Of a DNA stretch of 64,000 bases, positions 1 to 63,651 are shown in pieces. A program made the position numbers and the translations under genes. This stretch comes from a virus. Each line of letters opens with the position of its first letter. The first letter of the stretch is position 1. The notes under the pieces are model-generated. The model was not told the origin of the DNA. It did no database searches and saw only the letters and a program-made list of their open reading frames with translations. The stretch is from IMG/VR virus record IMGVR_UViG_3300042463_000877, positions 24,403 through 88,402 of that record; one strand, given 5' to 3'.

Positions 1-2105
1 TTTCATCACCAACAACCTTAAGTAATGTATATGTTAATCAAATTGGTCAAGGATATGTTAGTGGCGATACTTTAACATTTAACGGATTATTATTTGGTGG
101 TGCTATACCACAAGATAATGTTACATTACAAATTAATACTACTAATGGTGGTAATAATATTGCAATTGGTGGTGGTTGTTTAAATACCGCATATAGAAAT
201 ACGTCAACAATTGGTGGTGGGTGTAGAAATATAAGTAGTGCAAATTGTTCAACAATTGGTGGTGGTCGTTGTAATATTATAAATATTGATTCTTGTTATT
301 CAACAATAAGTGGTGGTAGACAAAATACAACTTATGGTTGTTATAGTACAATATCTGGTGGTAGATGTAATGAAGGTGGTGTTAGAAATGGTGTAAGCGG
401 TGTTTATAACCAAACATACACAGGAGGAACACTTAATGGATTATTTACAAATATACAACCAACCTCAACAAATTCACTTTATGGTTTTGCTGCAACTTTT
501 AATTTTCAATTCTTTTTAGGAACACTTAATAATGTTACGGTTAACAATAGAGGAAATTTTTATGAATCAAATGATTTATTTTTCTTTGATGGTAGTATAT
601 TTGGCGGAACATCTGGAATTGATGATGTAACATTTAATGTAAATACAACAACAAATAACTATGCAACTATTGCCGGTGGATGTCAAAATACTGCATCTGG
701 AGAATACTCAACAATAAGTGGTGGTTATGAAAATACAACATCTGCTGATTACTCAACAATTGCCGGTGGTGCAAATAATACAATATCAACATATAGCGAA
801 TATGCAACAATCGGTGGTGGTGATGATAACACAATTATAGGTAGTGAAACTGCAACAATTGCCGGAGGAGAAAATAACACAATTACAACAAATAGTGATT
901 ATTCATTTATTGGTGGTGGTTTTGATAATGTTGTAAAAAGTTCTTTTTCATCAATTGTTGGTGGATGTAACAATACCGCAAGTAGTTACAACTCATTTAT
1001 TGGTGGTGGAGAAAATAACGTTTCTGGAATAAATAATTATGTTAGTGGAATACCTGGTTTTACATATACTGGTGGAACTTTAAATAGTTCTTATGGTAGT
1101 ATTGCACCAACATCAACATCAAGTGGTACCGGATCTGGAGCATACTTTAGTTTTGATTTTGTTCTTGGTGTATTACAAACCGTTCAAATACAAAACGGAG
1201 GTTCTGGGTATTCTAATGGTGAAACACTATATTTTAACGGTGGATTATTTGGTGGATCTTCACCTTTGGATGATGTTTGGTTAAATATCCAAACACAAAA
1301 CAATACTCATGCAACCGTAAGTGGTGGACGAAATAACACATCAAGTGGTCGGTATTCAACAGTAAGTGGTGGAATAAATAACACATCAAGTGGATATCGC
1401 TCAACTGTAAGTGGTGGATATTGTAACACATCAACTGGAAATTCTGCAACCGTAAGTGGTGGGTATGTTAACACATCAAGTGGAAATTATTCAACAATAA
1501 GTGGAGGTTATCAAAACACATCAAGTGGGGCTGGCTCGACCGTAAGTGGTGGATATAGAAACACATCAAGTTGTAATTATTCAACCGTAAGTGGTGGTGT
1601 TTGTAACACAGCAAGTGGAGATATTTCAACTGTAAGTGGTGGTGTTTGTAACACAGCAAGCGGTTGTTATTCAACTATTGGTGGTGGTGGTTCATCATCT
1701 GGATATTCTGGACATTTAGCATTAGGTTGCTTTTCAACAGTAAGTGGTGGTAATAGAAATACAACAAGCGGAGGTTATTCAACTGTAAGTGGTGGACGAA
1801 ATAACACATCAAGTGGAGATGTTTCAACTGTAGGTGGTGGAAATATTAACACAGCAAACGGACCACTTTCGACAATTAGTGGTGGGTATTGTAATACGAT
1901 AAATAATCAATTTAGTGGTATACTTGGTGGTTGTAATAATAAAATTGTAAACGATTGTTCTTTTATTATTGGAAATGGGATTACTAGTACTGCTGCAAAC
2001 ACAACACACGTAAATTGTTTACACATCAGTAATATACCAACAAGTTCGGTAGGTCTTGCACCAGGAACAGTATGGAGTAACGGAGGAGTATTAAATATAG
2101 CGTAA
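1..2105 (+). CDS. Tail fibre / adhesin with YadA-head-like repeats (5' end outside window)
   Basis: One reading frame is open from base 3 to the TAA at 2103-2105. The first in-frame ATG is only at 1266, so this is the 3' part of a longer gene, not a gene starting at 1266. The product is almost entirely 14-15-residue repeats of the form STVSGGxxNTSSGxY, the pattern of trimeric autotransporter (YadA-type) head domains, which form left-handed beta-rolls in trimers. Three copies of a different module of about 90 residues interrupt the repeats. The C-terminus (HISNIPTSSVGLAPGTVW, then SNGGVLNIA) is of a type common at the ends of phage fibre proteins; I see no intramolecular chaperone domain. Role inferred: receptor-binding fibre. 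A second head-repeat fibre lies at 61951-63651. Confidence 0.85.
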   Translation, partial: SSPTTLSNVYVNQIGQGYVSGDTLTFNGLLFGGAIPQDNVTLQINTTNGGNNIAIGGGCLNTAYRNTSTIGGGCRNISSANCSTIGGGRCNIINIDSCYSTISGGRQNTTYGCYSTISGGRCNEGGVRNGVSGVYNQTYTGGTLNGLFTNIQPTSTNSLYGFAATFNFQFFLGTLNNVTVNNRGNFYESNDLFFFDGSIFGGTSGIDDVTFNVNTTTNNYATIAGGCQNTASGEYSTISGGYENTTSADYSTIAGGANNTISTYSEYATIGGGDDNTIIGSETATIAGGENNTITTNSDYSFIGGGFDNVVKSSFSSIVGGCNNTASSYNSFIGGGENNVSGINNYVSGIPGFTYTGGTLNSSYGSIAPTSTSSGTGSGAYFSFDFVLGVLQTVQIQNGGSGYSNGETLYFNGGLFGGSSPLDDVWLNIQTQNNTHATVSGGRNNTSSGRYSTVSGGINNTSSGYRSTVSGGYCNTSTGNSATVSGGYVNTSSGNYSTISGGYQNTSSGAGSTVSGGYRNTSSCNYSTVSGGVCNTASGDISTVSGGVCNTASGCYSTIGGGGSSSGYSGHLALGCFSTVSGGNRNTTSGGYSTVSGGRNNTSSGDVSTVGGGNINTANGPLSTISGGYCNTINNQFSGILGGCNNKIVNDCSFIIGNGITSTAANTTHVNCLHISNIPTSSVGLAPGTVWSNGGVLNIA
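385..655 (+). repeat. Inserted fibre module, copy 2 of 3
   Basis: This segment encodes a non-head module containing GGTLNGLF, FFLGTLNNVTVNN and SIFGGTSGIDDVTFNVNT. It aligns by eye with the module at about 1024-1310 and with a partial copy at 1-160 (pattern: V-x-V, then G-x-x-Y-x-S, F-x-G, FGG, DDV). Confidence 0.7.
1024..1310 (+). repeat. Inserted fibre module, copy 3 of 3
   Basis: Encodes TGGTLNSSYGSIAPTS, FVLGVLQTVQIQNGGSGY and GGLFGGSSPLDDVWLNIQT. It is the same module as at 385-655, diverged but collinear. It separates two blocks of head repeats. Confidence 0.7.
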
Positions 2106-2396: not shown

Positions 2397-5237
2397 ATGT
2401 CGTTTTACACGACAGCAAATGAACCACTCAAAAAATATATTATGATTACAGCAGAAGAAATTAAATCGTTTCTAGAAGGAAACGACCCTGAAGAACACAT
2501 TGTGGCAATAGAGTTTGATTATCAAAAAGACCACATTTATAAAATCAAAGAAGTACCCGAAAAGGGAAAATCAATCGTTAGAGATAGTTTAATAGCATTT
2601 GCGTGGGTCGGTGACTTACGTGGACTTAACTTTTATCAAGGTTCAAAAGCATTACAAAAAGAAGCAATGTCCAAATACGGAATTGTTATTGAGAAGTTAA
2701 GAACAGACGGAAATGAACAATTAGAAAAAGGTTTAACATTCCTTGTTAAATCATTAAAAGGGTATAGAGCTCTATCACAATTTTTTAGAGATGGTGGTAT
2801 AGATCCTTGGGGTGAAAAAGCAAAAGACAAGTTTTTAATGTTAACACCGACAGAACAATTCTTAGTTTCAAAAGAAAAAAGGTTGTTTAAAGGATTTGAA
2901 GATTACAATGATATCACAAGACTTGTATTTGACCTTGAGACCACATCTCTAGAACCTAGAGATGGGAGAATCTTTATGATTGGAATTAAAACAAATAAAG
3001 GTTATAGAAAAGTAATTGAATGCTCAAATGAAGACGAAGAACGAAAAGGTCTTGTTGAGTTCTTTAAAATTATAGACGAAATAAAACCATCAATCATTTC
3101 TGGTTATAACTCAGCAAACTTTGACTGGTATTGGATTTACGAAAGATGTAAGATGTTAAATCTTGATATTAAAAAAATTGCAAAGTCACTTCACGGTGAA
3201 AGGTCAATCACACAAAAAGATTCAATGTTAAAACTTGGTAATGAGGTTGAGAAATTTACCCAAACTCAAATGTGGGGTTATAACATTATTGATATTATAC
3301 ATTCAGTTCGTAGAGCACAAGCAATTAATTCGTCAATCAAAGAGGCGGGTCTTAAATACATCACAAAATTTATTGATGGTGAAGCTGCTGACCGAGTGTA
3401 CATAGACCACGATAAGATTGGTTCTTTATACAAAGAAAAAAACTTATACTGGTTAAATATAGAAAACGGTAAATATAAAAAGGTTGGTGTAGATGAGAAG
3501 ATAGATGAGGTTTGTTCAAGAAGAACTGACATCTATATTCAAACAACGGGTGATGATATTGTTGAACGTTACCTTGACGATGACTTAGAAGAGACGCTAC
3601 TTGTTGATGAAGAATTTAACCAAGGGTCCTTTCTTCTAGCATCACTTCTTCCAACAACATATGAAAGAGTATCAACAATGGGTACAGCCACAATCTGGAA
3701 GCTTGTAATGCTTGCCTGGTCGTATAAGAATGGTCTTGCAATTCCAGCAAAAAAAGAAAAAAGAAACTTTGTTGGTGGATTATCAAGATTATTAAAGACT
3801 GGTTATTCAAAAGACGTATTAAAACTTGACTACTCATCCCTTTATCCTTCAATTCAATTAACACACGATGTATTCCCAGAATCGGACATAACTGGTGTAA
3901 TGAAAGGTTTATTATCTTATTTTAGGGATAGCCGTATTATGTATAAGAACTTGGCATCAGAATACAAATCAATTGATAAAAAGAAGGCCAAATCTTATGA
4001 TACAAAACAGTTACCAATTAAGATTTTTATTAACTCTTTATTTGGTGCTCTTTCCGCCCCACAAGTATTTCCGTGGGGTGATATGGATATGGGAGAACAA
4101 ATTACTTGTACTGGTAGACAGTATTTAAGACAGATGTTAAAATTCTTTATGAAAAGAGGGTACACTCCACTTGTATGTGATACGGACGGTATGAACTTTT
4201 CATTACCAGATGGGGGAGTTGAGGATAGAAAATACATTGGTCGTGGATTAAATTGGTTAGTTAAAGAAGGAAAAGAATATACTGGGTATGATGCTGATGT
4301 GGCCGAATTTAACGACCGGTTCATGCGTGGTACAATGGGTCTTGATTGTGACGGAACTTGGGATTCTTGTATTAACTTAGCTCGTAAAAACTATGCAACA
4401 TTAGAACATAATGGTAAAGTAAAACTTACAGGAAATACAATTAAATCTAAAAAGATGCCAAAGTATATTGAGTTATTTTTAGATAAAGGAGTTAAACTAT
4501 TACTTAATGGTAATGGACAAGGGTTTGTTGAATGGTACTATGAATACCTACAAAAAATATTTGACCAAAAAATTCCTTTAATGGATATCGCAAGTAAGGC
4601 AAAAATTAAACAATCAATTGATGACTACATCAAAAGAAGTAAAACTAAAACAAAGGCCGGTGCTTTAATGTCACGACAAGCCCATATGGAACTTGCAATA
4701 AATGAAGGTCTTAATGTTAATCTTGGTGATGTAATCTATTATGTAAACAACGGAACAAAAGCTTCACACGGTGATGTTCAGAAAGTTAATAAACCAAAGA
4801 AAGGGTGGAATGACGAACAACTAAAAACTTTCTTTTCAAATACAAAATTAAATCCAGATACGATAGAATCTGTTATACAACTTAACTGTTATAGAATTAA
4901 TCCCCAAGAATTAGAAAGTAACCCAGGACTTACTGGTGAATATAATATTCAAAGAGCGATTGCAACATTTAATAAAAGAGTGGAACCATTACTTGTTGTT
5001 TTTAAAGAAGAAGTAAGAGATGGACTTTTAGTTAAGAATCCAGAAGAAAGACCATTCTTTACAAAAGACCAGTGTGAATTAATTAATGGAGTTCCATTTG
5101 AGGAAAAAGATCAGGATGATATACAAAAAGACCTCATCGATATGGAAAAGGGAGAAGTTGAGTTTTGGGAAAATGTTGGTATAAACCCACAATATATTTA
5201 CGAATTAGCAGAAGAAGGGTGGGAAGAATATATTTAA
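2397..5237 (+). CDS. 43: Family B DNA polymerase (T4 gp43-like)
   Basis: Replicative DNA polymerase with 3'-5' proofreading exonuclease. Exonuclease motifs: DLETT near residue 180 (Exo I), NSANFD near 240 (Exo II) and YLDDD near 390 (Exo III). Polymerase motifs: DYSSLYPS near 478 (motif A), KIFINSLFG near 541 (motif B) and DTDG near 595 (motif C, metal-binding Asp). Length (946 aa) is near T4 gp43 (898 aa). The start could be ATG 2397 (peptide begins MSFYTTANE, like many T4-type polymerases) or ATG 2442 (MITAEEIKSFLEG). The predicted promoter gives 2397 only a very short leader, so the start is uncertain. Its stop overlaps the stop of the convergent minus-strand gene in the tetramer TTAA (5234-5237). 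Confidence 0.95.
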   Translation: MSFYTTANEPLKKYIMITAEEIKSFLEGNDPEEHIVAIEFDYQKDHIYKIKEVPEKGKSIVRDSLIAFAWVGDLRGLNFYQGSKALQKEAMSKYGIVIEKLRTDGNEQLEKGLTFLVKSLKGYRALSQFFRDGGIDPWGEKAKDKFLMLTPTEQFLVSKEKRLFKGFEDYNDITRLVFDLETTSLEPRDGRIFMIGIKTNKGYRKVIECSNEDEERKGLVEFFKIIDEIKPSIISGYNSANFDWYWIYERCKMLNLDIKKIAKSLHGERSITQKDSMLKLGNEVEKFTQTQMWGYNIIDIIHSVRRAQAINSSIKEAGLKYITKFIDGEAADRVYIDHDKIGSLYKEKNLYWLNIENGKYKKVGVDEKIDEVCSRRTDIYIQTTGDDIVERYLDDDLEETLLVDEEFNQGSFLLASLLPTTYERVSTMGTATIWKLVMLAWSYKNGLAIPAKKEKRNFVGGLSRLLKTGYSKDVLKLDYSSLYPSIQLTHDVFPESDITGVMKGLLSYFRDSRIMYKNLASEYKSIDKKKAKSYDTKQLPIKIFINSLFGALSAPQVFPWGDMDMGEQITCTGRQYLRQMLKFFMKRGYTPLVCDTDGMNFSLPDGGVEDRKYIGRGLNWLVKEGKEYTGYDADVAEFNDRFMRGTMGLDCDGTWDSCINLARKNYATLEHNGKVKLTGNTIKSKKMPKYIELFLDKGVKLLLNGNGQGFVEWYYEYLQKIFDQKIPLMDIASKAKIKQSIDDYIKRSKTKTKAGALMSRQAHMELAINEGLNVNLGDVIYYVNNGTKASHGDVQKVNKPKKGWNDEQLKTFFSNTKLNPDTIESVIQLNCYRINPQELESNPGLTGEYNIQRAIATFNKRVEPLLVVFKEEVRDGLLVKNPEERPFFTKDQCELINGVPFEEKDQDDIQKDLIDMEKGEVEFWENVGINPQYIYELAEEGWEEYI

Positions 5238-5608
5238 CCAAGTTTTAAACCGTCACTTGATAGGATATACCAGTTTCCTTCAACAAACTGAAACTGAACA
5301 CAAGCTCCTTTTTCTAAAAGGAGTTCATCCCATTCTTCATCAATTTGACCAATATCAGTTTTTACAATAACACTAGATAAAGATTTTATTGTAATTTTAG
5401 AACTTGTTTCAGAATTTAAAGTAACTTCGGATTGTTCTACGTTTCTTACAATTAATAAAGATTCTTCACCAGTTTTATAAATTGGTTCTGAAATTACTTT
5501 ATTAGTAACTTGTGGTACCACCACAACCTCACTTGGTATTTCAATCGGAATATGTGTTTGATATTTTACAATATTTTTTCTTGGTGTTATGTTTTCAACT
5601 CTTATCAT
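5234..5608 (-). CDS. Hypothetical protein (124 aa) paired with virion structural gene
   Basis: The start ATG overlaps the stop of the upstream minus-strand gene by 4 nt (ATGA type), so translation is probably coupled. The product is beta-rich, with hydrophobic/Thr/Val strands and no membrane segment. It begins MIRVENITPRKNIVKYQTHI and has a C-terminal half with GACVQFQFVEGNWYILSSDG, which looks like a small beta-barrel. I do not recognise a family. Coupling to the structural gene suggests a small virion protein such as a decoration or connector accessory. The stop codon shares the TTAA tetramer with the convergent polymerase gene. Confidence 0.75.
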   Translation of the reverse strand: MIRVENITPRKNIVKYQTHIPIEIPSEVVVVPQVTNKVISEPIYKTGEESLLIVRNVEQSEVTLNSETSSKITIKSLSSVIVKTDIGQIDEEWDELLLEKGACVQFQFVEGNWYILSSDGLKLG

Positions 5609-6732
5609 ATCACATAAATTTGTCTTGGCATAGCTCTAAACTTGAGCTGTTTATTTAAGTTTTCAGCAAGTAATGCTTCACGTTCCATAACTTTTTCTGG
5701 TTTCAATCTTGTAAGTCTTCCTTCAGCACCAATAAGTTCATCAATAAGTTTTGTCTTTTCATCTTTAGCTTCAGTTGCCAGTGATGTGTAATCCATAGTT
5801 AAATCACCACCTTCACCTGTTTTTAAGTTTCCACTAAACTTACCTCGTACTCTAGATAATGTTTCCTTACAATAAGCAATAAACCATCTTCTAACCCAAA
5901 CTTGTGCTGGATTATTTAAATCGTTCCAACCCATTTTATCAAATGGAACATCCGATGGTAGTCTTATTATGTCTGGATTTTCAGCCAAACATTTATCTCT
6001 ATCACCACCATCATCGTAATACCAATACCAAACTCTACCTCTCATTAATGTCCCATTACCAAAGTCAAATTTACCACCAGGTGTATTCATTAAATGAACA
6101 GCTTTTTTACCTTCTGGTAATGCTGTTACACGATATGTTAATTCACCGGCAATAATTCTTCTTTGTATGTTAATTTCTTGCATTCTTAATAACATATCAA
6201 AAGCTGGCATCATAAAATAACTACCACCCATATTACCCATTTGAGCTAAACCTCCACCTCCTCCGAGACCTCCACCAACACCTAAAGATCCAAAAGACCA
6301 AGGGTCAAATACCATATTATTTAATTCTGGTGGAGAATACCATAACAATTCGTTTAATTCACGACCAGCGGGAATTTCATATATCTGTTGTTTAGGTACT
6401 AATTGTATATAATCCTTTTTCAACACAGAGTCACCACCAGCTTGTAGACCTACGATTTTTGAATAGGCATATGTGTATCTTGTTTCATAATCAAGACTTC
6501 TAGTTGTAAAAGCTTTTGTTAATGATTGTGTGTCTAAATTAAGATTATAAAGTGCGGTCCATTGTGATTCAATTAACCAGTCTTGAACATATTGTGAATA
6601 CTCGTCGATAGAAAATTCTAAAAGAGTGTCCATTTGTTCATCTTCTAACTCAACACTTCTAAGTGGTGCACCAAGTAAATGCCTTACTTTTGTGTATAAT
6701 TTACTTCTGTTTGGTTCATCAATAATTGCCAT
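5605..6732 (-). CDS. Conserved T4-type virion structural protein (connector/neck-like)
   Basis: 375 residues. The N-terminus (KVRHLLGAPLRSVELEDEQM) resembles the LGxPxxxxELxDEQ opening of phage connector-like structural proteins. The middle has IYEIPAGRELNELLWYS. A Gly/Met-rich loop (GGGLGGGGG) lies around residues 150-170. The last third (RVRGKFSGNL, LTMDYTSLATEAKDEK, EREALLAENLNKQLKFR) matches the pattern of a virion structural family found in T4-like phages. Role inferred: head-tail junction or neck. The start ATG lies behind a minus-strand TATTTATA element. It is separated from the SOD fusion by about 30 nt and coupled to the 124-aa gene downstream. The exact T4 counterpart is not certain. 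Confidence 0.75.
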   Translation of the reverse strand: MAIIDEPNRSKLYTKVRHLLGAPLRSVELEDEQMDTLLEFSIDEYSQYVQDWLIESQWTALYNLNLDTQSLTKAFTTRSLDYETRYTYAYSKIVGLQAGGDSVLKKDYIQLVPKQQIYEIPAGRELNELLWYSPPELNNMVFDPWSFGSLGVGGGLGGGGGLAQMGNMGGSYFMMPAFDMLLRMQEINIQRRIIAGELTYRVTALPEGKKAVHLMNTPGGKFDFGNGTLMRGRVWYWYYDDGGDRDKCLAENPDIIRLPSDVPFDKMGWNDLNNPAQVWVRRWFIAYCKETLSRVRGKFSGNLKTGEGGDLTMDYTSLATEAKDEKTKLIDELIGAEGRLTRLKPEKVMEREALLAENLNKQLKFRAMPRQIYVI

Positions 6733-6763: not shown

Positions 6764-8860
6764 TTATTTTAGTATTCTTCTTACGTCTATTTTGAATCTT
6801 TCATTTCTAGAAAGGTTCCTAATTATATCTTGTGGGATGTTATCACCTAATTTACCAACACCATATTTTTGACCTAAGTTATTAAATAAATCAAGAACTT
6901 CTTTTGTTTTATCGTCACCTAATAAAAATTCTGAATATTCTTGGGTTGATATTTCTGGAAACTTTATTGCACCTCTTTGTGGTGCCACATCAGAATTGGT
7001 TAATTTTAATATCTTTGTTGAAAATCTTATTTGTTGTGAATTTTTTGATTTTGGTGCTGTCGTCATACCAGGTAATTTAAGAATGTTTTTAATGGCATTC
7101 TTATCATAATAATATAGTGATATATTATAACTTTCATTTGGAACTCCTAATAACATACCGTCAATATCACTTAATAAGTACTCAATTAAATCTTCGGCAA
7201 CATTAACAATGTCTTGGTTTTGACTGCTAATCAACTGAGCAATAAAATTAGACTCACTTTCGATTGACTGTAAATATTTTTTATTTTCTTCACTACCGGT
7301 GTATGAATTAATATACCCAGAAAGTGATGCTTTAATTCCTTTCAAAACCGGTGACTCACTTGTGTTTCTTACTATCTTACAAGAAATCTTTAATCCTTCT
7401 GGTGTTACTAAATCATAAGGTGTGTTTAAACCAGAAGAAATTTGTCCACCAAGTAAACCAGAAATCAACGCTTCAAAATCTAAACCTCTAGATCTACTTC
7501 TAATAAATCTTTGGTAATAATTATTAAATCTAAATCTTGTTCTTTCTGATGTTTCAGATAAATCTAAATTCATAAGACCTTCTATTGTTCTATTAAATTT
7601 TAAACCACGTTCTTCAATTTCAGTTGTTATAATATTATTAATAGCAACTTCAGCGGCTTCAGCATCTAAAGGAATTAATCTAATTTTTTGTAGTTCTCTA
7701 TTCATCGCTCGTTTAACATCGGGTTCAAACTCTTCACTTTCTAATAGAACCCTCAAATATGTTTCGTTTAATTTTTTCTTAGATTTACCAACATAAAGTT
7801 CATTAACAAATTCCCAATTTATATGGTTCCAGAACTTTTTAATGTATTCATCTCTTTTATTTCTATATCTAAGATAATATGCGTGTTCCCACAAATCAAG
7901 ACCAAGAAGTGGATATCCACCATCTTTAATAATATTCATAAGTGGATTATCTTGGTTTGGTGTGGACATAATTTTTAATCTATTTGTCTTTGTTAAAACA
8001 AGCCAAACCCAACCAGAACCAAACCTTTCTTTAGCAACTTCATTAAACTCGTCCTTCATTTTTTTAATATTACCATATTGTTTGGTAATTTTTTCAAAAA
8101 TCTCACCTTTTGGGATTTGTTTTTTTGGTGATAACATTTTCCAAAACAATGCGTGATTAAATGCACCACCTGCGTTGTTTCTAACTTTTGTATCGTACTT
8201 ACTAATAGATTTTATAATATCTTCTAAATCAACATCTTTATAATTTTTTTTAGAAAGAGCATCATTTAATTTTTTAACATAACCTTTATAATGTTTGTTA
8301 TAATGTATGTTCATTGTTTCTGGATCAACAAATTGTTTTAATGCTGAGTACGAATACGGTAACTTTTCAATTCCAATCTTTTTCATCTCTAAAAGAAATT
8401 CTTTTTTGATGTTTTCTTTTTCAGTAATTAAAATATTTTCTTTTAATAAATTAATTTTTTTATTTAAACCTTCATACATCATTTCTTCTTTTTCTGGAAA
8501 TCGTTTTTCAAATTTCTTTAATAAAAAACCGGCTTTAGCATTTGCTTCATCTTCCAAAGGACCACCAATACCATCGTTAGTTGGTTTTTTTCCTTTTACA
8601 TTCATTTGCCATTCGTGTACCCATTCGTGTGCTAAAGTTCTAAAAATATCTCTATTCATTCTTCCTTTAGTTAATATTTTTAATTCAGAATCTTGAGTTC
8701 TACTTCCAGATGTCATTGTACCAAATCTTTCACCAGTAAAAATAATTGTAATTTCTTCTTTTAATGGATATTTTTTTTGTAAAAATTTTATAAAATCGTT
8801 TGCTAACTTTCTGTCTTTTTCGGACATCTCACACTTTATATGTTTTACCTTAACTTTCAT
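6764..8860 (-). CDS. Zincin - Fe/Mn superoxide dismutase - nuclease-like triple fusion
   Basis: 698 residues in three parts. Residues 1-125: metallopeptidase-like, with HEWVH (78-82) and a possible third ligand in LEDEA (E103/E105). Residues about 166-356: a full-length Fe/Mn superoxide dismutase starting at LPYSYSALKQF, with metal ligands H186, H236, D322 and H326 all present (NNAGGAFNHALFW; LDLWEHAYYLRYRN). GG at 231-232 and NQD at 302-304 resemble Mn-type or cambialistic enzymes. Residues about 364-698: a third region whose E463, D483 and SCK (493-495) vaguely resemble a PD-(D/E)xK nuclease with Ser replacing the usual Glu; its activity is doubtful. The joins contain LITE (144-147), FLLE (155-158) and LNETYLRVLLE (364-374), which look like the cargo tag and (I/L)xE cleavage sites. 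It may therefore be a processed polyprotein. The SOD part is certain by motif; the other parts are tentative. Confidence 0.9.
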   Translation of the reverse strand: MKVKVKHIKCEMSEKDRKLANDFIKFLQKKYPLKEEITIIFTGERFGTMTSGSRTQDSELKILTKGRMNRDIFRTLAHEWVHEWQMNVKGKKPTNDGIGGPLEDEANAKAGFLLKKFEKRFPEKEEMMYEGLNKKINLLKENILITEKENIKKEFLLEMKKIGIEKLPYSYSALKQFVDPETMNIHYNKHYKGYVKKLNDALSKKNYKDVDLEDIIKSISKYDTKVRNNAGGAFNHALFWKMLSPKKQIPKGEIFEKITKQYGNIKKMKDEFNEVAKERFGSGWVWLVLTKTNRLKIMSTPNQDNPLMNIIKDGGYPLLGLDLWEHAYYLRYRNKRDEYIKKFWNHINWEFVNELYVGKSKKKLNETYLRVLLESEEFEPDVKRAMNRELQKIRLIPLDAEAAEVAINNIITTEIEERGLKFNRTIEGLMNLDLSETSERTRFRFNNYYQRFIRSRSRGLDFEALISGLLGGQISSGLNTPYDLVTPEGLKISCKIVRNTSESPVLKGIKASLSGYINSYTGSEENKKYLQSIESESNFIAQLISSQNQDIVNVAEDLIEYLLSDIDGMLLGVPNESYNISLYYYDKNAIKNILKLPGMTTAPKSKNSQQIRFSTKILKLTNSDVAPQRGAIKFPEISTQEYSEFLLGDDKTKEVLDLFNNLGQKYGVGKLGDNIPQDIIRNLSRNERFKIDVRRILK

Positions 8861-8911: not shown

Positions 8912-10672
8912 CTAATTTCTTTTGTTTATTAAATTTAGTATTTCTTCAACAACATCACCAGATTCTTGTAATTCATCTCCCATTACAGTACCAATAACTT
9001 TTTTCTTTTTATTTAGTATATCATAGATAACACCTTCAATTGTGTTTTCAAAAATTGGGTAATAAACAAGAACATTATTTTTCTGACCGTAACGATATGC
9101 TCTATCTTCTGCTTGAGCGTGTTCGGCTGGTACGAATGATAAATCATTCATTATTACAACTTCGGCAGCTGTTAAAGTAAGTCCAACACCGGCCGCTTTT
9201 AGGTTACCAACAAATACTTTAATTTTTTCATTTTCCTGGAATTGGTCAACAGCATACTGTCTTTGTACTTTATTACAACTACCATCAAGGTATACTGATT
9301 CTTTACCAAAGTGATTATGAATTAACTGCAACGTGTCTGTGAAATTTGTAAATATGATTACTTTTTTTCCTTGGTCTATAATGTTCTGTGCAAACTCAAT
9401 TGTATCTTTTACTTTTTCATTTGCAATTACTTTTCTTACTTTCATTAATTTTGAAAACTGAACGGTAAGTGAAGATGATTCTTCTTTTTTATTTTCTAAC
9501 CATTCGTAGTATTCCCCCATCAAATCTTTGTATTCTTTTGATGAAGTCCTTAGATAAACTGGTGTAATAATTTTATCTGGTAAATCTAAAACATTTTCTT
9601 TTAATCTTCTCAGAATTTGTTTTGAAGTTCTATCCCTTAATTCTTCTAGGTTTGACGCTCCAGTAACATTCCACACCTTTCTATTTCCAGCTCTAAACTG
9701 AAATCCTTGACAATAACGAATAGCATAAGCCATCCAGTTTTGTGCTACTGGACTTTCAATTATATTTAATAAGTTATAATAATTAATTGGTCTAGATGTC
9801 ATTGGTGTACCAGTTAACAACCAAACTCTTTTTATATTTTTTACAAAATCATTTATAAGTTTTGTTCTTTGAGCTTGAGCGTTAGAAACCATATGGGCTT
9901 CATCTAAAATCACAAGTTCAAACTTTGATTGTAATAATAATGAGTTTTCTTTATCTTCCTTACTGTGAAAGTTTTTTAATATATCATAGTTTACAATAAC
10001 AAAATCAGCTTCAGTTGAAAATTTTTTACCTTCAGCAATAAAACAGGTTCTATCTGAATAATTTGCAATTTCTCTTTCCCAGTTTATTTTAAGTGACGCT
10101 GGACAAACAATCAAAATTTTCTTTGCGCCAGTTTCTAAAGCAGCAATAATTGTTGAGGTTGTTTTACCAAGTCCCATATCATCAGCTAAAATAAATCTTC
10201 TGGAACCAACCAGTTTTTCTATAGCTTCTTTCTGGTGTGATAGGGGTGGTCTGTGTTCGTATTTAGAATAATCAATATTAACCTCATCCACAGTTTGTGA
10301 TTTAATTAAAGATGATTTGGGAACCCAAAATTCAGAAAGATTATCTTTTTCAAAAAACTTACCCCAGATATGATATGATTTATCTTTTTCAACAAGTAGT
10401 TTTTCAATATAAACTTTTTCTGGTGTTTCTAACAAATATCTTTCTTGTGCAAACTTTTTAGCAAAGTAAGGGTCAAGTTCAACCCACTTACGAGCAACCT
10501 TTGGTTTTGTATCAAAATACGTTACTACATATTCTGCTTGAGTCCTTGTTGGGTAAAACTTTTTATTAGTTTCTTTTTTGGTTTTCATATAAAGAATATG
10601 GTTATTACCTCCACTATATGAATCCAACAAATCGAGTGCTTTATGTTCTATTAATTGTTTTTGTAATTCCAA
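8912..10672 (-). CDS. SNF2-family (SMARCAL1-like) DNA helicase/translocase
   Basis: Superfamily 2 ATPase acting on DNA during repair, fork remodelling or recombination, a job done by UvsW in T4. Motifs: DDMGLGKTT (Walker A, near residue 162), VILDEAH (Walker B, near 252), WLLTGTP (motif III, near 280), GNLKAAGVGLTLT (motif V) and EDRAYRYGQ (motif VI, near 522). The RxxRxGQ ending is typical of SNF2 proteins rather than of UvsW. The listed start is a TTG at 10672, behind a TATTTATAA element; the first ATG is at 10588 (MKTKKET), so the N-terminus is uncertain by 28 residues. It is divergent from the structural gene at 10733. Confidence 0.9.
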   Translation of the reverse strand: MELQKQLIEHKALDLLDSYSGGNNHILYMKTKKETNKKFYPTRTQAEYVVTYFDTKPKVARKWVELDPYFAKKFAQERYLLETPEKVYIEKLLVEKDKSYHIWGKFFEKDNLSEFWVPKSSLIKSQTVDEVNIDYSKYEHRPPLSHQKEAIEKLVGSRRFILADDMGLGKTTSTIIAALETGAKKILIVCPASLKINWEREIANYSDRTCFIAEGKKFSTEADFVIVNYDILKNFHSKEDKENSLLLQSKFELVILDEAHMVSNAQAQRTKLINDFVKNIKRVWLLTGTPMTSRPINYYNLLNIIESPVAQNWMAYAIRYCQGFQFRAGNRKVWNVTGASNLEELRDRTSKQILRRLKENVLDLPDKIITPVYLRTSSKEYKDLMGEYYEWLENKKEESSSLTVQFSKLMKVRKVIANEKVKDTIEFAQNIIDQGKKVIIFTNFTDTLQLIHNHFGKESVYLDGSCNKVQRQYAVDQFQENEKIKVFVGNLKAAGVGLTLTAAEVVIMNDLSFVPAEHAQAEDRAYRYGQKNNVLVYYPIFENTIEGVIYDILNKKKKVIGTVMGDELQESGDVVEEILNLINKRN

Positions 10673-16186: not shown

Positions 16187-16549
16187 ATGAAAAAAATCAT
16201 AAGACTAACAGAATCAGATTTAACAAAAATTGTAAAAGGAGTTCTAATAAGTGAATCAAACGATAACATTAATAAAATAAAAGAATTAAATAAAAAATAC
16301 CCAGGTGAAAAAAATGCTGAATGGTGTGCTTATGCTGTTTTGGACGGTAATCTCAGAAACTGTTACATAAAGAATTGTTTGGGTCTTGAAGATAAGTATT
16401 GTAAAAACGCTAAAAATTGCCCTAGTTGTTTTAGTGAAGAATTTATTCTAACACATACTAAAGTTTTAAGTTGTGTTACAGCTTGTGTTACAACAGGAAA
16501 ATATGACGATATGAATTGTGGTGATTATGAAGGTAATTTTTATTGTTAA
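16187..16549 (+). CDS. Cys-rich small protein with N-terminal cargo-like tag
   Basis: 120 residues. The N-terminus (KKIIRLTESDLTKIVKG) is an amphipathic tag shared with the protein at 42949, followed by LISE-S at 20-24, which fits an (I/L)xE prohead-protease-type site. The rest has ten Cys residues (WCAY, NCYIKNC, KNCPSC, CVTAC, MNC and a terminal C), suggesting disulfides or metal binding. No signal peptide is seen. I do not recognise a family. It sits between sheath and tube but has its own promoter-like motif and follows a terminator, so it is probably not a tail part. Packaging in the head is inferred only from the tag. Confidence 0.75.
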   Translation: MKKIIRLTESDLTKIVKGVLISESNDNINKIKELNKKYPGEKNAEWCAYAVLDGNLRNCYIKNCLGLEDKYCKNAKNCPSCFSEEFILTHTKVLSCVTACVTTGKYDDMNCGDYEGNFYC

Positions 16550-16578
16550 TAAAATTATTTAATGTAATATTTATTACT

Positions 16579-17547
16579 ATGAATTATAAAAAATTAGTAA
16601 AAGATATTATTCTTGAAATTGCTGTAGATAGGAGATTAAGATTATATGGTTTTGACTGGGACGACAATATTTTGGAAATGCCTACTAAGATTTATTTAAA
16701 AAGTGATGAAGGTAGCGTTGTTGGAATGTCTACTGAAGACTTTGCAAACTATAGATCACAAATAGGTTCAAAACCTTTTAAATATAAAAAACACATAATT
16801 GTTGGTTTTGATGACGATGCTTTTAGGGATTTTAGAAGACCAGATACTTTTTTAAGAGATACAAAAAAAGCAATATTAAAAAATAAAACAGCACCAAGTT
16901 TTAAAAAATTTAAAGAAAATTTAATTTACGCAAATCCGTTTTCAATAATTACAGCAAGAGGACACGACCCGAAAGTAATTAGAAAAGGTGTTAGAATGTT
17001 TGTTGATTATGTTTTCGAACCAGAGGAAAAAGAAAAAATGGTTAAAAACATTATTTCAACGTTTAAACATGAAGAATTATTTAGTAAAGATTTTATAACA
17101 AAATTAAATAGACTTAATCAAGACCAATTAATTGATTTATATCTTGATGAAAAAGGTGATTATTATCCAGTATCGTCAGAAGAATTTGGAGAAAAATTTG
17201 GTTTGGACACAAGTGGGGGTGCGGCAAATCCTGAACACGCAAAAAAAGTAGCACTTTTAGATTTTGTTAACAAATACGATGAATTAATTAGAAGCGGGAA
17301 ATATGTTAGTGCTTCATTAGGTTTTTCAGATGACGACCCAAGAAATGTTAAAGCAATGGTGGAGTTTATTCAAGATGAGTTATCTAAAATGTATCCAGAT
17401 ATAAAATTTAGAGTTTATGATACTTCAGAAGGAGGATATAAACAAATTAAAATAGAAACTGAAAACAATCAAGAAAATAAAAATGAAGATGAATTAATGT
17501 TAGAAAGTGTTATTAATAGGATAATATTTAAAATTAAATCAAAGTAA
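16579..17547 (+). CDS. HAD-superfamily phosphatase-like protein
   Basis: 322 residues from ATG 16579, which follows a TATTTATTA element; a longer TTG start at 16543 overlaps the previous gene and is less likely. HAD motifs: I, LYGFDWDDNIL (nucleophile Asp near residue 20); II, SIITARG (Thr near 128); IV, GFSDDDPRNV (acidic pair near 254). Substrate is unknown; nucleotide or polynucleotide-end phosphatases are possible. The N-terminus (MNYKKLVKDIILEIAV) is a short amphipathic helix with an ILE-I site, resembling the tagged genes nearby. The C-terminal 20 residues are helical and charged (ELMLESVINRIIFKIKSK). Confidence 0.75.
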   Translation: MNYKKLVKDIILEIAVDRRLRLYGFDWDDNILEMPTKIYLKSDEGSVVGMSTEDFANYRSQIGSKPFKYKKHIIVGFDDDAFRDFRRPDTFLRDTKKAILKNKTAPSFKKFKENLIYANPFSIITARGHDPKVIRKGVRMFVDYVFEPEEKEKMVKNIISTFKHEELFSKDFITKLNRLNQDQLIDLYLDEKGDYYPVSSEEFGEKFGLDTSGGAANPEHAKKVALLDFVNKYDELIRSGKYVSASLGFSDDDPRNVKAMVEFIQDELSKMYPDIKFRVYDTSEGGYKQIKIETENNQENKNEDELMLESVINRIIFKIKSK

Positions 17548-35887: not shown

Positions 35888-36898
35888 ATGGCAATTAAGA
35901 AAAATGACTTTAGTTCGATTAAGAAAAAATTCTCTTCGGACGCAAAATACAAACCACAAAGATACTTTGATTTAGGACCGGCATTTTTAGATGCTGTTGG
36001 TCTTCCAGGTCCTGCGATGGGACATATTAATATGTTTTTGGGACACTCAGATACCGGTAAAACAACAGCACTTGTTAAAACAGCTGTTGATGCTCAAAAG
36101 AAAGAAATACTACCAGTTTTTATTATCACAGAACAAAAATGGTCTTTTGAACACTCAAAACTTATGGGGTTTGAATGTGATGAAGTTGTTGATGAAGAAA
36201 CAGGTGAATTGACTTGGGATGGATTCTTTTTGTTTAATAATAATTTTAGTTATATTGAACAAATTACAGATTACATTAATGATTTGTTAGATGCTCAAGA
36301 AAAAGGTGAACTTGATTATTCATTATGTATTATGTGGGATTCTGTTGGTTCCGTTCCTTGTAAAATGACCTATGAAGGTAAAGGTGGTAAACAACACAAT
36401 GCAAGTGTTTTAGCCGATAAGATTGGAATGGGAATTAACCAAAGAATTTCTGGTTCAAGAAAAGCAGATTCAAAATTTGAGAATACATTAATTATTGTAA
36501 ATCAACCTTGGGTAGAATTACCAGACAATCCATTTGGTCAACCAAAAATTAAAGCAAAAGGTGGTGAAGCAATTTGGTTAAATTCATCTTTAGTATTTTT
36601 ATACGGAAATCAAAAAGGTGCTGGAACAACAAAAATTACAGCAACAAAAGATAAAAGAACTGTTAAATTTGCATCAAGAACAAAAGTATCGGTTATGAAA
36701 AACCACATTAATGGACTTGGTTTTGAAGATGGTAAAATTATTGTAACACCTCACGGGTTTTTACCTGGAAAGGATGCTACGGAAGAAAAAAAGTCTATTG
36801 AAGACTACAAAAAAGATTATGCCGAATATTGGAAAACAATTATTGGTGTAGATGGTGAATTTGATTTAAAAGAAGAAAAGGTTTATGAACAAGAATAA
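35888..36898 (+). CDS. uvsX: UvsX-like RecA-family recombinase
   Basis: 336 residues; strand exchange and recombination-dependent replication. Walker A-type GHSDTGKTT near residue 52, Walker B-type LCIMWDSVGS near 152, and NQPWVELPDN with downstream GGEAIWLNSSLVFLYG resembling the L2/DNA-binding region of UvsX. Basic C-terminal strands (FASRTKVSVMKNHINGLGFE) follow. It works with the gp32-like SSB two genes upstream and the gp41-like helicase downstream. Its last 14 nt overlap the methyltransferase start, so the two are translationally coupled. The start ATG follows AAATAAAATAATT, without a Shine-Dalgarno sequence. Confidence 0.92.
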   Translation: MAIKKNDFSSIKKKFSSDAKYKPQRYFDLGPAFLDAVGLPGPAMGHINMFLGHSDTGKTTALVKTAVDAQKKEILPVFIITEQKWSFEHSKLMGFECDEVVDEETGELTWDGFFLFNNNFSYIEQITDYINDLLDAQEKGELDYSLCIMWDSVGSVPCKMTYEGKGGKQHNASVLADKIGMGINQRISGSRKADSKFENTLIIVNQPWVELPDNPFGQPKIKAKGGEAIWLNSSLVFLYGNQKGAGTTKITATKDKRTVKFASRTKVSVMKNHINGLGFEDGKIIVTPHGFLPGKDATEEKKSIEDYKKDYAEYWKTIIGVDGEFDLKEEKVYEQE

Positions 36899-37907
36899 AT
36901 TAAAAGTAGTATCGTTATTTTCCGGTTACGGAACACAAGAGTTAGCACTTAAATACATTGGTGTTGACTATGAAAATGTTGCAAACTGTGATAACTTCAA
37001 ACAGGCAAACGAATGTTATGATGTTTTACATACAACAACTTATGGAAATTTAGGTGATATTACAAAAATTGATGAAAATAACTTTCCAAGTTGTGACTTA
37101 CTAACATATTCATTTCCTTGCCAAGACATTTCAATATCTGGAGTACAAAGAGGAATTAAAGAAGGAACAAGAAGTGGATTATTATTTGATGTTGAAAGAT
37201 TATTATCGGCAAATAGACCAAAATTTTTGTTAATGGAAAACGTTAAAAACTTGGTTTCAAAAAATCATTACGAAAATTTTAAAAAACATATCTATTTTTT
37301 AAGAGGACTTGGGTATAGTTCTTATTGGAGAGTCCTTAATGGTGCCGACTTCGGTTGTCCACAAAATAGAGAAAGAGTTTTTATGATGTCAGTTCTAAAT
37401 AGTAGTATTGAAGAAGTACAAGAAAAAATGATGAACGTTGATAGTCATAAAAAAACAAGAGTACCAATGAAATCTTTTATTGACGAAAACTTTAGTGAAT
37501 CTTTGATTGTTGATTGTCCATTCACACCACATGAACCAAAAAAACATACGATTTGTAAATTAGTTGGTAGAAGAGACGATGTTAGTTATGACCAAACAAG
37601 AAGAATTTACTCTGTTGAAGGCTGTTCACCTTGTCTTACAACAAGTGGTTCACCACAGTTATTAACTGAAGATGGTAGAGTGAGAACAATTACAGCAAGA
37701 GAAGGTTATAGATTTATGGGTGTTAGAGAAGAAGATATTAATTTGTTATTAACAACTACTTTATCAAACACGGCACACGTAGCACTAGCTGGAAACTCAA
37801 TCTGTGTTCCAGTTATGGAAGCGATTTTCAGTGAATTTTTTTCTGAATATATGGAAGAAAAAGAACCAGCAATGTCAAATCCAATAAACGAAATATCTAA
37901 TGACTAA
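36885..37907 (+). CDS. DNA (cytosine-5) methyltransferase
   Basis: 340 residues. C5-MTase motifs: I, VVSLFSGYGTQELAL (residues 8-22, AdoMet); IV, TYSFPCQDIS (catalytic Cys near 78); VI, LLMENVKNL (near 118); VIII, QNRERVFMM (near 160); IX/X, EGCSPCLTTSG and REGYRFMGV, then AGNSICVPVMEAIF. It methylates cytosine at an unknown recognition sequence. No cognate endonuclease gene is seen nearby, so it is probably a solitary protective or regulatory enzyme. The ATG overlaps uvsX by 14 nt, and the stop overlaps the next start by 8 nt, placing it firmly in the replication operon. Confidence 0.95.
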   Translation: MNKNKLKVVSLFSGYGTQELALKYIGVDYENVANCDNFKQANECYDVLHTTTYGNLGDITKIDENNFPSCDLLTYSFPCQDISISGVQRGIKEGTRSGLLFDVERLLSANRPKFLLMENVKNLVSKNHYENFKKHIYFLRGLGYSSYWRVLNGADFGCPQNRERVFMMSVLNSSIEEVQEKMMNVDSHKKTRVPMKSFIDENFSESLIVDCPFTPHEPKKHTICKLVGRRDDVSYDQTRRIYSVEGCSPCLTTSGSPQLLTEDGRVRTITAREGYRFMGVREEDINLLLTTTLSNTAHVALAGNSICVPVMEAIFSEFFSEYMEEKEPAMSNPINEISND

Positions 37908-42948: not shown

Positions 42949-43725
42949 ATGAAAATCAAAATAACCGAAAGTCAATTAAAAAGAATTATTGAAAGATATA
43001 CAGATAATGGTACATTAAATGAAGCTTGGTATGACGATGCTTTAGATTTTGTTAAATCTTCATATGAAACAGTTAAAGGTAAAACCAAAGAAGTTTTTAA
43101 AGACATAACGGGTATTGATTTTGATAAAAAAGATGATATTAAAATTGATAAAGTACCAACAGGTAAGGAAATTAAAAATAAAATCGAAGATATTAAAAAA
43201 GACGTAAAAATCGGTAAAGATAAAGAAGAAAAAGATACTGAAGAAAAAAAAGACGAAAAGAAAACAAAAACGGAAAGTGGTGGTACCACAGTGGTTATTG
43301 GTGGTATAAGTTATGCAACAGCTAATTGGATGAAATCACAATGGGAAAATGCTGGTTTGTCTACCAAAAATGTTGAATTTATAAACTATAACGAAGGTTC
43401 AAAATTAGAAAAACTTAAAGAAACTAAAAACGTAACAAAAATTATGGGATTTTCAGCTGGAGGAAGATTGGTCTGGAAAGAAATAGATAATAATGTAAAA
43501 GACTATGATTTTATTGGTCTTATTGATCCATCTTCATCAAAAGTATACACAAAATTACCGTCAAATGTTAAGTCTTTATCAAATAGTGGTAATTGGGGTG
43601 GTTATCCTTCGATTAAATCAGTACTTGCCGCTATGGAAAAAAATGGCACATTAACAAAAACCAGTAAAGCTCATAGAGACATACCACTAGAATTTTTTAG
43701 AAAGCACGAAGATAGTTTAGACTAA
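42949..43725 (+). CDS. Tagged serine-hydrolase-like protein (GFSAGG)
   Basis: 258 residues. The N-terminal tag KIKITESQLKRIIERYTDN is followed by TLNE-A (22-26), an (I/L)xE-type protease site. A Lys/Glu-rich linker (about 60-110) leads to an alpha/beta-hydrolase-like domain: VVIGGISYATANWMKSQW, IMGFSAGGRLVWKEI (nucleophile Ser in GxSxG), DFIGLIDPSSSKVY (acid Asp) and AHRDIPLEFFRKHE (His). Substrate is unknown: lipase/esterase or peptidase are possible. It has its own promoter-like motif and is flanked by terminators, so it is an independent unit between the replication and wedge blocks. Confidence 0.75.
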   Translation: MKIKITESQLKRIIERYTDNGTLNEAWYDDALDFVKSSYETVKGKTKEVFKDITGIDFDKKDDIKIDKVPTGKEIKNKIEDIKKDVKIGKDKEEKDTEEKKDEKKTKTESGGTTVVIGGISYATANWMKSQWENAGLSTKNVEFINYNEGSKLEKLKETKNVTKIMGFSAGGRLVWKEIDNNVKDYDFIGLIDPSSSKVYTKLPSNVKSLSNSGNWGGYPSIKSVLAAMEKNGTLTKTSKAHRDIPLEFFRKHEDSLD

Positions 43726-61950: not shown

Positions 61951-63651
61951 ATGGCATTTCTTACCGACAGAACATTAGCAACAGGAGTTACATTACAAGA
62001 TTTAATACATATTGTGATTACTGGTGATACATCACAAAATCCAGCTGGTTCATCATATAAAGCAACAATACAACAAGTATCTGACGCAATATTATCTGGA
62101 TTTACTGGAAATACACAATTATATGAAGTAGGACTTGGCACAGACTCAACACAGAGAGTTGGTTTTAATAATGATGCTAGTGGTAATTGTTCATTAGTAA
62201 GTGGTGGGTTTTGTAACACAGCTAGTGGATATTGGGCCGTTGTTTCTGGCGGATTGAATAACAAATCAATAGATCTTCTTGGTACTATTAGTGGTGGTCA
62301 AAATAATACAACCGGTGGTGAAGGATCAATAGTTGGTGGCGGAAGCTTTAATACAAGTGGTTGTAATACAGCTCTAAATAATTACACAACAATTAGTGGT
62401 GGGTTTTGTAACGTGGTGTTTGGAGGTGTTTCAGTAATAGGTGGAGGTGAAGGAAATACAATAGTAGATACGTGCTCAAGTTTAATCGGAGGAGGATGTT
62501 TAAATAAAATAGACACAATAACAACATCTGGAAGTTATTGTGTTTATGGGTCAACGATTGGTGGCGGTTCTTTTAACACAATATCATCTTATAGTGCTTA
62601 CTCTGATAGTTATGGAAATACAATTGCTGGAGGAACTTTTAATACAACACTTTCTTCATATTACAATGGTCAAACAATTAGTGGTGGTGTTAGAAATACA
62701 ACAAATGGTAATTATTCAACAATCGGCGGTGGATATTGTAATACAACAAATGGTTGTATGTCAACAATAAGTGGTGGATATTGTAATACAACTTCAGCAA
62801 TTTATACCACAATTTCAGGTGGTTACTACAATACGGTATCAGGAATTTATTCGGTTGTTTCTGGTGGTTTGGGAAACTCAGCATCTGGTTATGCAAATTC
62901 AATAAATGGAGGTACATTCAACGTCACAAATCAAGACTACTCTACTGTTGCCGGTGGTGGTAATAATACAGCAACACTGTTTTCAACAGTAAGTGGTGGT
63001 GGTAGCAATACCGCGTCATGTTACTCAACAATTGGTGGTGGTGTTGGAAATGAAGCCTTAAGTCTAAACTCAACAATTGCTGGAGGTGATACAAACAAAA
63101 CTTCTGGATGTAGATCGTTTGTTGGTGGTGGTAGATTAAATACAACACTATGTAGTTATTCATCTATTTTAGGAGGTTCTGGTAACACAGTAAACCATAT
63201 TTTATCAAGTGCTGTAGGTAAAGATGTTAAATCTGTTTCTGCTTGTACCCTACACGTAAATTATTTAGCATTACAGGATACACCAATTTTGGATCAATCT
63301 TTAACTGATTATTTAGTAAGAGATTCCGCAACAGGTGTTGTAAAATATAAAACAGCACAACCATCATATATAAACACAACAAGTGTTTCGGTATCAGGAT
63401 ATACCGCATCAACAAATTTCACATATTACGGTGTAACTTATAGTGGTGATACTGATATACAAATTCCTAGTCCATTAAGTTTAGATGGTTTTAATTTTAA
63501 AATAAAAGACGAAAGAGGAACTGCAGGTTCTTATAGAATAAGGGTAACACCAACAACTGGTTTAATAGATGGTAATACTTATATAGATATGAACATAAAC
63601 TATATGTCACTTACATTTGTGGCAAGAAATAATAATTGGTGGATAATATGA
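61951..63651 (+). CDS. Tail fibre with YadA-head-like repeats, second copy
   Basis: 566 residues. The N-terminus (MAFLTDRTLATGVTLQDLIH, then IVITGDTSQNPAGSSYKATI) is a short attachment region. From about residue 75 to 410 come head repeats (SGGxxNTxSGxxSTI); there are no inserted modules like those at 1-2105. The C-terminal 150 residues (TCTLHVNYLALQDTPILDQS; VSVSGYTASTNFTYYGVTYS; YRIRVTPTTGLIDGNTYIDM, then NINYMSLTFVARNNNWWII) form a beta-rich tip. Role inferred: trimeric receptor-binding fibre. Minus-strand frames over the repeats are shadows. The stop overlaps the next start (ATGA). Confidence 0.88.
   Translation: MAFLTDRTLATGVTLQDLIHIVITGDTSQNPAGSSYKATIQQVSDAILSGFTGNTQLYEVGLGTDSTQRVGFNNDASGNCSLVSGGFCNTASGYWAVVSGGLNNKSIDLLGTISGGQNNTTGGEGSIVGGGSFNTSGCNTALNNYTTISGGFCNVVFGGVSVIGGGEGNTIVDTCSSLIGGGCLNKIDTITTSGSYCVYGSTIGGGSFNTISSYSAYSDSYGNTIAGGTFNTTLSSYYNGQTISGGVRNTTNGNYSTIGGGYCNTTNGCMSTISGGYCNTTSAIYTTISGGYYNTVSGIYSVVSGGLGNSASGYANSINGGTFNVTNQDYSTVAGGGNNTATLFSTVSGGGSNTASCYSTIGGGVGNEALSLNSTIAGGDTNKTSGCRSFVGGGRLNTTLCSYSSILGGSGNTVNHILSSAVGKDVKSVSACTLHVNYLALQDTPILDQSLTDYLVRDSATGVVKYKTAQPSYINTTSVSVSGYTASTNFTYYGVTYSGDTDIQIPSPLSLDGFNFKIKDERGTAGSYRIRVTPTTGLIDGNTYIDMNINYMSLTFVARNNNWWII
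62190..63200 (+). repeat. Coding head repeats of the second fibre
   Basis: About 20 units encoding SGGxxNTxSGxxS, in frame throughout. Unit DNA is more diverged than in the fibre at 1-2105, but short blocks (AGTGGTGGATATTGTAATAC) recur and could support recombination between the two genes. Confidence 0.8.

Follow-up and report, generated by a model that had tools for sequence, protein, structure and literature searches.

The locus examined here encodes a superoxide dismutase (SOD) between two other domains in a single viral reading frame. The question raised is whether this chain acts as one protein or is cut into separate enzymes that would enter the next host with the phage DNA. The window (the whole stretch of DNA analysed, 64,000 nt) comprises positions 24403-88402 of the 88,402-base IMG/VR virus record IMGVR_UViG_3300042463_000877. 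A first-pass annotation had described the gene as a three-part fusion in which a HEWVH zincin-like domain and a nuclease-like domain flank the SOD. HEWVH was located at residues 78-82, and the three parts (zincin-like 1-130, SOD 165-356, nuclease-like 381-698) proved to be conserved in relatives. The reading preferred here, at a probability of roughly 0.7, is that the fusion would be a T4-type capsid-cargo polyprotein with a working SOD that is cut and ejected.

Locus and sequences compared

The features of the window used in the analysis are as follows (↓ marks a candidate cut).

6764-8860, minus strand: fusion gene, zincin-like, SOD and PD-(D/E)XK-like; ATG start, single 698-aa ORF without internal stop
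8471-8860, minus strand: zincin-like domain, residues 1-130; HEWVH at 8615-8629, E103/E105 at 8546-8554
8369-8470, minus strand: linker 1, residues 131-164; three [LI]xE sites in a tag-like peptide, of which LLE158↓M159 (8384-8395) is the main predicted cut
7793-8368, minus strand: Mn-type Fe/Mn SOD, residues 165-356, from Pfam, PDB by sequence, Foldseek and invariant residues
7721-7792, minus strand: linker 2, residues 357-380; tag-like KKLNETYLRVLLE, candidate cuts LNE366↓T (7763-7771) and LLE374↓S (7739-7747)
6767-7720, minus strand: PD-(D/E)XK nuclease-like module, residues 381-698; E463, D483, S493-C-K495
8912-10672, minus strand: SNF2-type helicase, conserved upstream neighbour of the fusion gene, from profile matches and synteny
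5605-6732, minus strand: head-tail adaptor-like gene (PHROG 211, E=2.8e-9), conserved downstream neighbour on the same strand, from synteny
16187-16549, plus strand: small protein with N-terminal tag MKKIIRLTESDLTKIVKGVLISE↓S
42949-43725, plus strand: protein with N-terminal tag MKIKITESQLKRIIE↓R

The window carries genes of a T4-like contractile-tailed phage. A family B polymerase, the SNF2-type helicase and the PHROG-211 head-tail adaptor were identified by profile matches; tail sheath, tail tube, RecA-like, DnaB-like, baseplate and ribonucleotide-reductase-like genes were recognised by reading translations. The phage is most likely T4-like, tailed and from fresh water. Its host probably belongs to the Bacteroidota, because the nearest SODs are mostly from Bacteroidota and a relative is a Flavobacterium phage. 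The fusion gene sits between helicase and head-tail adaptor, outside the head cluster. Most loci whose flanks are intact keep helicase, cargo gene and adaptor in this order on a single strand; the arrangement fits late or mixed expression and leaves the cargo question undecided.

Other genes were noted in passing. A HAD-like protein (window 16543-17547, LYGFDWDDN) has a leader MNYKKLVKDIILE↓I and a tag-like C-terminal end and is possibly further cargo. A DNA cytosine methyltransferase-like gene (window 36885-37907) could shield phage DNA from a packaged nuclease, or mark phage DNA. Long TVSGGxxNTSSGxxS repeats at window 1266-2105 and 61951-63651, and likewise at L002 5925-13572, probably belong to fibre or adhesin-like proteins. 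The SNF2-type helicase ORF of L298 (1044-3410) exceeds that of L297 by ~276 aa, and the additional sequence (VKTLIYTPLGTKKIGELVIGDKVIG...) resembles an intein.

Relatives were taken from a scan of IMG/VR for relatives of the fusion and from separate module scans. The sample comprised 131 distinct SOD-bearing phage proteins, 100 zincin-first (zincin domain before the SOD) and 31 SOD-first; with the window protein it comprised 132, 101 of them zincin-first.

Linker peptides and exchange of modules

Linker 1 of the window protein holds three [LI]xE strings (L139-K-E141, I145-T-E147 and L156-L-E158) and linker 2 holds two (L364-N-E366 and L372-L-E374). The motif in this single sequence was rejected as evidence and only its conserved position was counted, because about one occurrence is expected by chance in such E/L/I-rich linkers. 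On that basis the (I/L)xE sites noticed at both joins by the first-pass annotation held. In 101/101 zincin-first proteins join 1 reads [LI]xE↓M and is followed at once by KKIGIEKLP or a close variant; P3 is always L or I, and P2 is free. Join 2 contains [LIV]xE, V being allowed, in 74/74 distinct second joins, followed by S, T, N, A or M in 72/74.

All 31 SOD-first relatives, which have no zincin domain, carry an N-terminal leader ending [LI]xE↓[MAI] at the join-1 position (29 recovered by pattern; L297 and L298 added on reading the upstream frame). Examples are MKSLNLVSESLVSRILGEETQPETKFFINE↓MKTIGIDKLP and ..DILSE↓AKRIGIDKLP, and the residue after the site is Ala in 10/31. L297 and L298 had been candidates for a leaderless SOD starting at the cut site (MKRIGIEKLP); this was rejected, an in-frame upstream leader (..FIISE↓M) with a non-ATG start being present in both.

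A tag score matrix was built from N-terminal tags and applied to the SOD joins and to control windows. As a group the joins scored above the controls (medians -3.2 and +3.1 against -10.8), the sequences scored being related to one another. For join 2 of the window protein (LNETYLRVLLE) the score falls within the top 1% of the controls. Linker 1 of the window protein gave no strong tag match, 13.6% of control windows equalling or exceeding its score. The description of the peptides at both joins as cargo-tag-like is supported by their conservation across relatives, the score of join 1 in the window protein itself being unremarkable. In the AF2 model linker 1 has a pLDDT of about 31-34. With a pLDDT of 31-55 across linker 1 and the first half of the SOD, the full-length model is weak there; its use was confined to the SOD fold and to showing low confidence at the joins.

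The modules around these peptides are exchangeable. Among distinct complete proteins the architectures were zincin-SOD-nuclease (32), zincin-SOD (31), zincin-SOD-X (19), zincin-SOD-other (10), SOD-other (20), SOD-X with various tails (5) and SOD-X-nuclease (2). The nuclease-like module occurs alone in 7 (plus one fragment) and the zincin-like domain alone in 2. Unrelated C-terminal modules follow the SOD while the linkers are kept, join 2 retaining LxE(S/T/N) and mostly a further [LI]xE. Both single zincins terminate exactly where linker 1 of the fusion starts. The lone nuclease-like module has a leader ending [LI]NE at a point aligned with linker 2 in 6/7 cases, e.g. MDNIYYTIAEQKMERLNDILNE↓MPKEDLKK. 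The L052 genome contains the same small C-module both as a fused C-terminus (KKPLNE↓SISLKEKL) and as a separate gene whose product is tagged N-terminally (MKIIITENQYKLIKE↓NISLKEKL). A scan for the X module with one query sequence returned only three relatives, and in Pfam searches of ten more C-terminal extensions SOD was the one named family to exceed its cut-off.

Tagged proteins, prohead protease and capsid protein

An N-terminal ITES-type tag (e.g. MKKIIRLTESDLTRIVKRVIKE) was found in 32/283 distinct proteins of the related phages versus 0/563 internal windows (Fisher p 2e-16, which is optimistic as the pattern was chosen after examples had been seen). On its own, the [LI]xE motif shows roughly twofold enrichment at residues 11-20 of these phages' proteins. 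Four records (L007, L052, L061 and L022) contain a gp21-type S77 prohead protease (PF03420, E about 1e-23), and these four plus that of L074 contain a gp23-type capsid protein. The L007 fusion is 92% identical to that of the window, and its record holds both protease and gp23. The gp23 propeptide comprises the first 60 residues and ends INE↓A in 4/4 complete copies, a site that agrees with the [LI]xE of the fusion joins. Neither gp21 nor gp23 was found in the window's own 88-kb record, which is a fragment.

The cultured Flavobacterium phage immuto is a distant relative by gp23 (42% identity). Within the stretch of its genome that was read, [LI]xE lies in about the first 25 residues of 16/22 genes before gp23 versus 1/22 after (p 5e-6), the split at gp23 being chosen by the analyst. 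Virion proteomics of this phage was looked for and none was found.

Tags inside or at the end of a chain were also seen away from the SOD. L170 (414 aa; 3477-4721) is an independent fusion of a small protein and a lysozyme/LysM-like protein, with the tag, including its Met, inside. Its parts are separate in relatives, the first protein in L179 and the lysozyme-like protein, tagged, in L171 and L168. A head-region protein in L097 (13129-14241) and L099 (13458-14978) is tagged at both ends (..IIKNVLKE↓A and ..TENDLTRIVKRVLNE↓D), and the L099 protein (506 aa) has an extra module after the C-terminal tag. As a separate observation, L168 5366-8670 and L179 6857-8936 each contain four to five consecutive genes starting M(K/R/N)I(I/V)xTExQ(Y/F)xxLxE; these runs look like a battery of packaged cargo genes.

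The conserved join sites, the leader-bearing single modules and the gp21-type protease in relatives together strengthen the reading of the fusion as a cleaved polyprotein. A general tag code is somewhat better than an even bet. Under it, an ITES/LNES-type helix ending [LI]xE, at N-termini, at C-termini or between enzymes, would both target a chain to the head and direct its cutting, with the SOD and the protease-like and nuclease-like enzymes delivered with the DNA.

Proposed mechanism and alternatives

In the proposed mechanism the linker peptides would have two roles, targeting the chain to the prohead and providing the sites at which a gp21-type protease cuts. The whole chain would be loaded into the prohead core, and each join would be cleaved after [LI]xE as the head matures. 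The separated enzymes would remain with the DNA and be ejected into the next host, where the SOD would remove superoxide in early infection and the protease-like and nuclease-like parts may attack host targets.

The closest known system is that of the T4 internal proteins and Alt, which carry a capsid targeting sequence (CTS) of 10-20 residues, are cut by gp21 and are ejected with the DNA (PMC7411985, PMC9958956). Short helical targeting peptides ending [LI]xE are common to T4 IPI-III/Alt and the fusion group, as are, in the fusion-related genomes, the gp21-type (S77) protease and the gp23 propeptide. Alt is cut at both ends, at ITE-6 and LTE-619 (PMC5694885), and the candidate sites of the fusion are likewise [LI]xE. 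Unlike T4 cargo, the fusion chains several enzymes with tag/cut peptides between them, one of the enzymes being a SOD, and its lead protein has no tag at its own N-terminus. Substrates of the SPN3US/phiKZ head proteases are cut after xxE and their cargo is ejected, as proposed here (PMC5694885, PMC10052503). SPN3US differs in its AxE motif, its long N-terminal propeptides and its lack of enzyme-tag-enzyme chains. Besides self-cleavage of the protease, every known SPN3US cut removes an N-terminal propeptide, and cutting of one chain into several retained enzymes is undocumented there (PMC10052503). This N-terminal-propeptide-only pattern was counted against the cargo-polyprotein explanation, as were the position of the fusion gene outside the head cluster and the internal placement of the tags in zincin-first proteins.

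A variant of the capsid-cargo explanation, whose confidence overlaps with it, is that the packaged and cut SOD protects packaged DNA or virion proteins from photochemical superoxide in sunlit fresh water. It shares the packaging signals of the cargo reading, and SOD has been reported among giant-virus virion proteins (PMC9405923). Nuclease-like and protease-like companions make little sense as protectants, however, and T4-type cargo is normally ejected (PMC7411985). Protection of the virion was judged possible, on the doubtful side.

The fusion could instead be an uncut multifunctional enzyme, an auxiliary metabolic or host-takeover protein made during infection and never packaged. The window protein begins directly with the zincin-like domain and has its tags inside the chain; zincin-first proteins in general have no N-terminal tag, and it is the SOD-first and nuclease-only relatives that have N-terminal leaders. 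The gene adjoins the helicase in most loci, and the annotated SODs of jumbo phages are single genes with no tie to heads. These points suit an uncut enzyme. It would, on the other hand, leave unexplained why both joins conserve [LI]xE with P2 free, why the leaders of single-module relatives have these sites too, why linkers persist while modules swap, and why relatives' records contain a gp21-type protease. On balance an uncut enzyme is unlikely.

Separate proteins might also arise from internal translation starts at M159, which is invariant in zincin-first proteins, rather than from proteolysis. The 10/31 SOD-first proteins with Ala at that residue, which still keep [LI]xE, argue against an internal ATG start. 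At join 2 no Met is conserved, and inspection of seven sequences by eye showed no DNA conservation apart from that of the codons. Internal starts were accordingly considered improbable, and cutting of the capsid-cargo chain is preferred.

Superoxide dismutase domain

Residues 165-354 of the window protein match Pfam Sod_Fe_N (E=1.9e-22) and Sod_Fe_C (E=1e-38); scores for PF00081/PF02777 were 80 and 131.9 bits against curated cut-offs of 27 and 20.9. The closest PDB sequence relative is the Sphingobacterium sp. T2 MnSOD 6gsc (E=4.7e-60, residues 166-356), and MnSODs, the same structures as in the sequence search, top the Foldseek list for the full-length model. The four metal ligands named by the first-pass annotation (H186, H236, D322 and H326) lie at those positions, as do its Mn-like GG/NQD residues (GG231-232, and Q303 and D304 of the NQD motif). 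Loss of ligands in homologues was not seen: all four are present in 132/132 proteins. Sixteen residues were checked, the four ligands plus twelve others of the active site or core, and 16/16 are invariant in the 132 SOD-bearing proteins, among them gateway H190 and Y194, Mn-type G231, G232 and Q303, and dimer E325 and Y329. The Mn-type second-shell, gateway and dimer roles are those generally assigned to these positions in MnSODs.

The Bacteroidota Mn/cambialistic SOD (6gsc) shares about 45-51% identity with the phage SOD across the whole domain, with catalytic and second-shell residues all in common. Unlike the bacterial enzyme, the phage SOD forms its own clade and is preceded by a leader or a zincin domain. 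Judged by its residues, the window fusion carries a complete Mn-type SOD, and this is most likely a working enzyme. Retention of the fold as a catalytically inactive dimerising or metal-binding scaffold would be in keeping with the strong divergence of other phage SOD-like proteins (26% identity in PA5oct-like phages). With the metal ligands and H190, Y194, Q303, E325 and Y329 invariant in 132 proteins, such a scaffold is very improbable.

Flanking modules

The zincin-like domain has H78, E79, H82, E103 and E105 invariant in alignments, as HEW(V/I)H and a downstream E-x-E-A. Both the HExxH and the downstream Glu ligand of a zincin metallopeptidase are thus present, and the domain is likely a gluzincin-like peptidase. 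The Pfam/peptidase families DUF6055, M91, SprT, M76, DUF5700 and M78 gave matches below cut-off or with weak E-values only, and PDB sequence searches with the zincin and C-terminal alignments returned nothing credible. A single-gene relative of the zincin domain occurs in the freshwater cyanophage Synechococcus phage S-SRM01 (L342 2932-3330; 37% over 89 aa).

The C-terminal module was modelled by AF2 with a pLDDT of 88.9. Restriction endonuclease chains, mainly Eco15I, NhoI and PvuII, plus 3ndh, occupied ranks 1-12 of the PDB fold search with this model, as weak matches (E 0.016-0.19). The positions E463, D483, S493 and K495 are invariant in 25 sequences. E463, D483 and K495 fit a putative PD-(D/E)XK site, with Ser493 in place of the acidic residue usually found before the K.

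Occurrence and phylogeny

At least 209 relatives of the fusion were found among IMG/VR pattern matches, and the best 80 of these all have zincin and SOD. The same domain order, looked for in other phages, was recovered in the 32 distinct complete zincin-SOD-nuclease proteins. The fusion is absent among 50,697 annotated phage records, and no bacterial fusion was found in a pattern-limited scan of bacterial genomes. In that scan the nearest single bacterial SODs were mostly from Bacteroidota, at 47-51% identity. The view that phage SODs are rare was not sustained, given at least 209 IMG/VR loci of such SODs. That the fusion is unusual is true of the annotated records, but it is widespread in one freshwater phage lineage. 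Within that lineage, which is uncultured, the SOD is common.

An assembly chimera or mis-called frame, conceivable for a metagenomic record, has a negligible chance: the domain order recurs in many independent contigs, across a wide identity range and beside the same neighbours, which refuted a join of separate genes.

In a tree with a small bacterial sample, a single clade (100/99 support) on a long stem contains the sampled phage SODs, and within it the zincin-first proteins are again a single clade (98/93 support). From these nested single clades, drawn with that small bacterial sample, the tree suggests a single capture of the SOD and a later single joining of the zincin.

Annotated phage SODs (PA5oct-like jumbo phages, Vibrio phage 2.275.O) have the Fe/Mn SOD fold, like the window protein, but are only 26% identical to its SOD, and the zincin and nuclease parts are covered by no record. 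SOD hits in several 'phage' records (H1-H9, H13) were set aside as they look like contaminating host chromosome. Those from Staphylococcus, Listeria, Salmonella, Escherichia and Enterococcus records and from MW462191 show bacterial-level identity, and the MW462191 gene also has a bacterial gene neighbourhood. The Megavirus Cu,Zn-SOD is also virus-encoded but belongs to an unrelated enzyme family in a eukaryotic virus and is not part of a polyprotein. No paper on phage SOD polyproteins was found in the open-access literature, subscription papers being outside the scope of the search.

Implications

When the host lacks sodB, the plating efficiency of an unrelated T4-like Campylobacter phage drops to 0.30 (PMC6024767), and superoxide can on this account limit phages. 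If the capsid-cargo reading is true, phages would possess a capsid-delivered enzyme polyprotein, and superoxide would be an obstacle that they must overcome immediately on entry. The tags would then provide a sequence code that predicts injected cargo among the many phage proteins of unknown function. They would also offer a directly testable system for the loading of enzymes into the heads of Bacteroidota phages.
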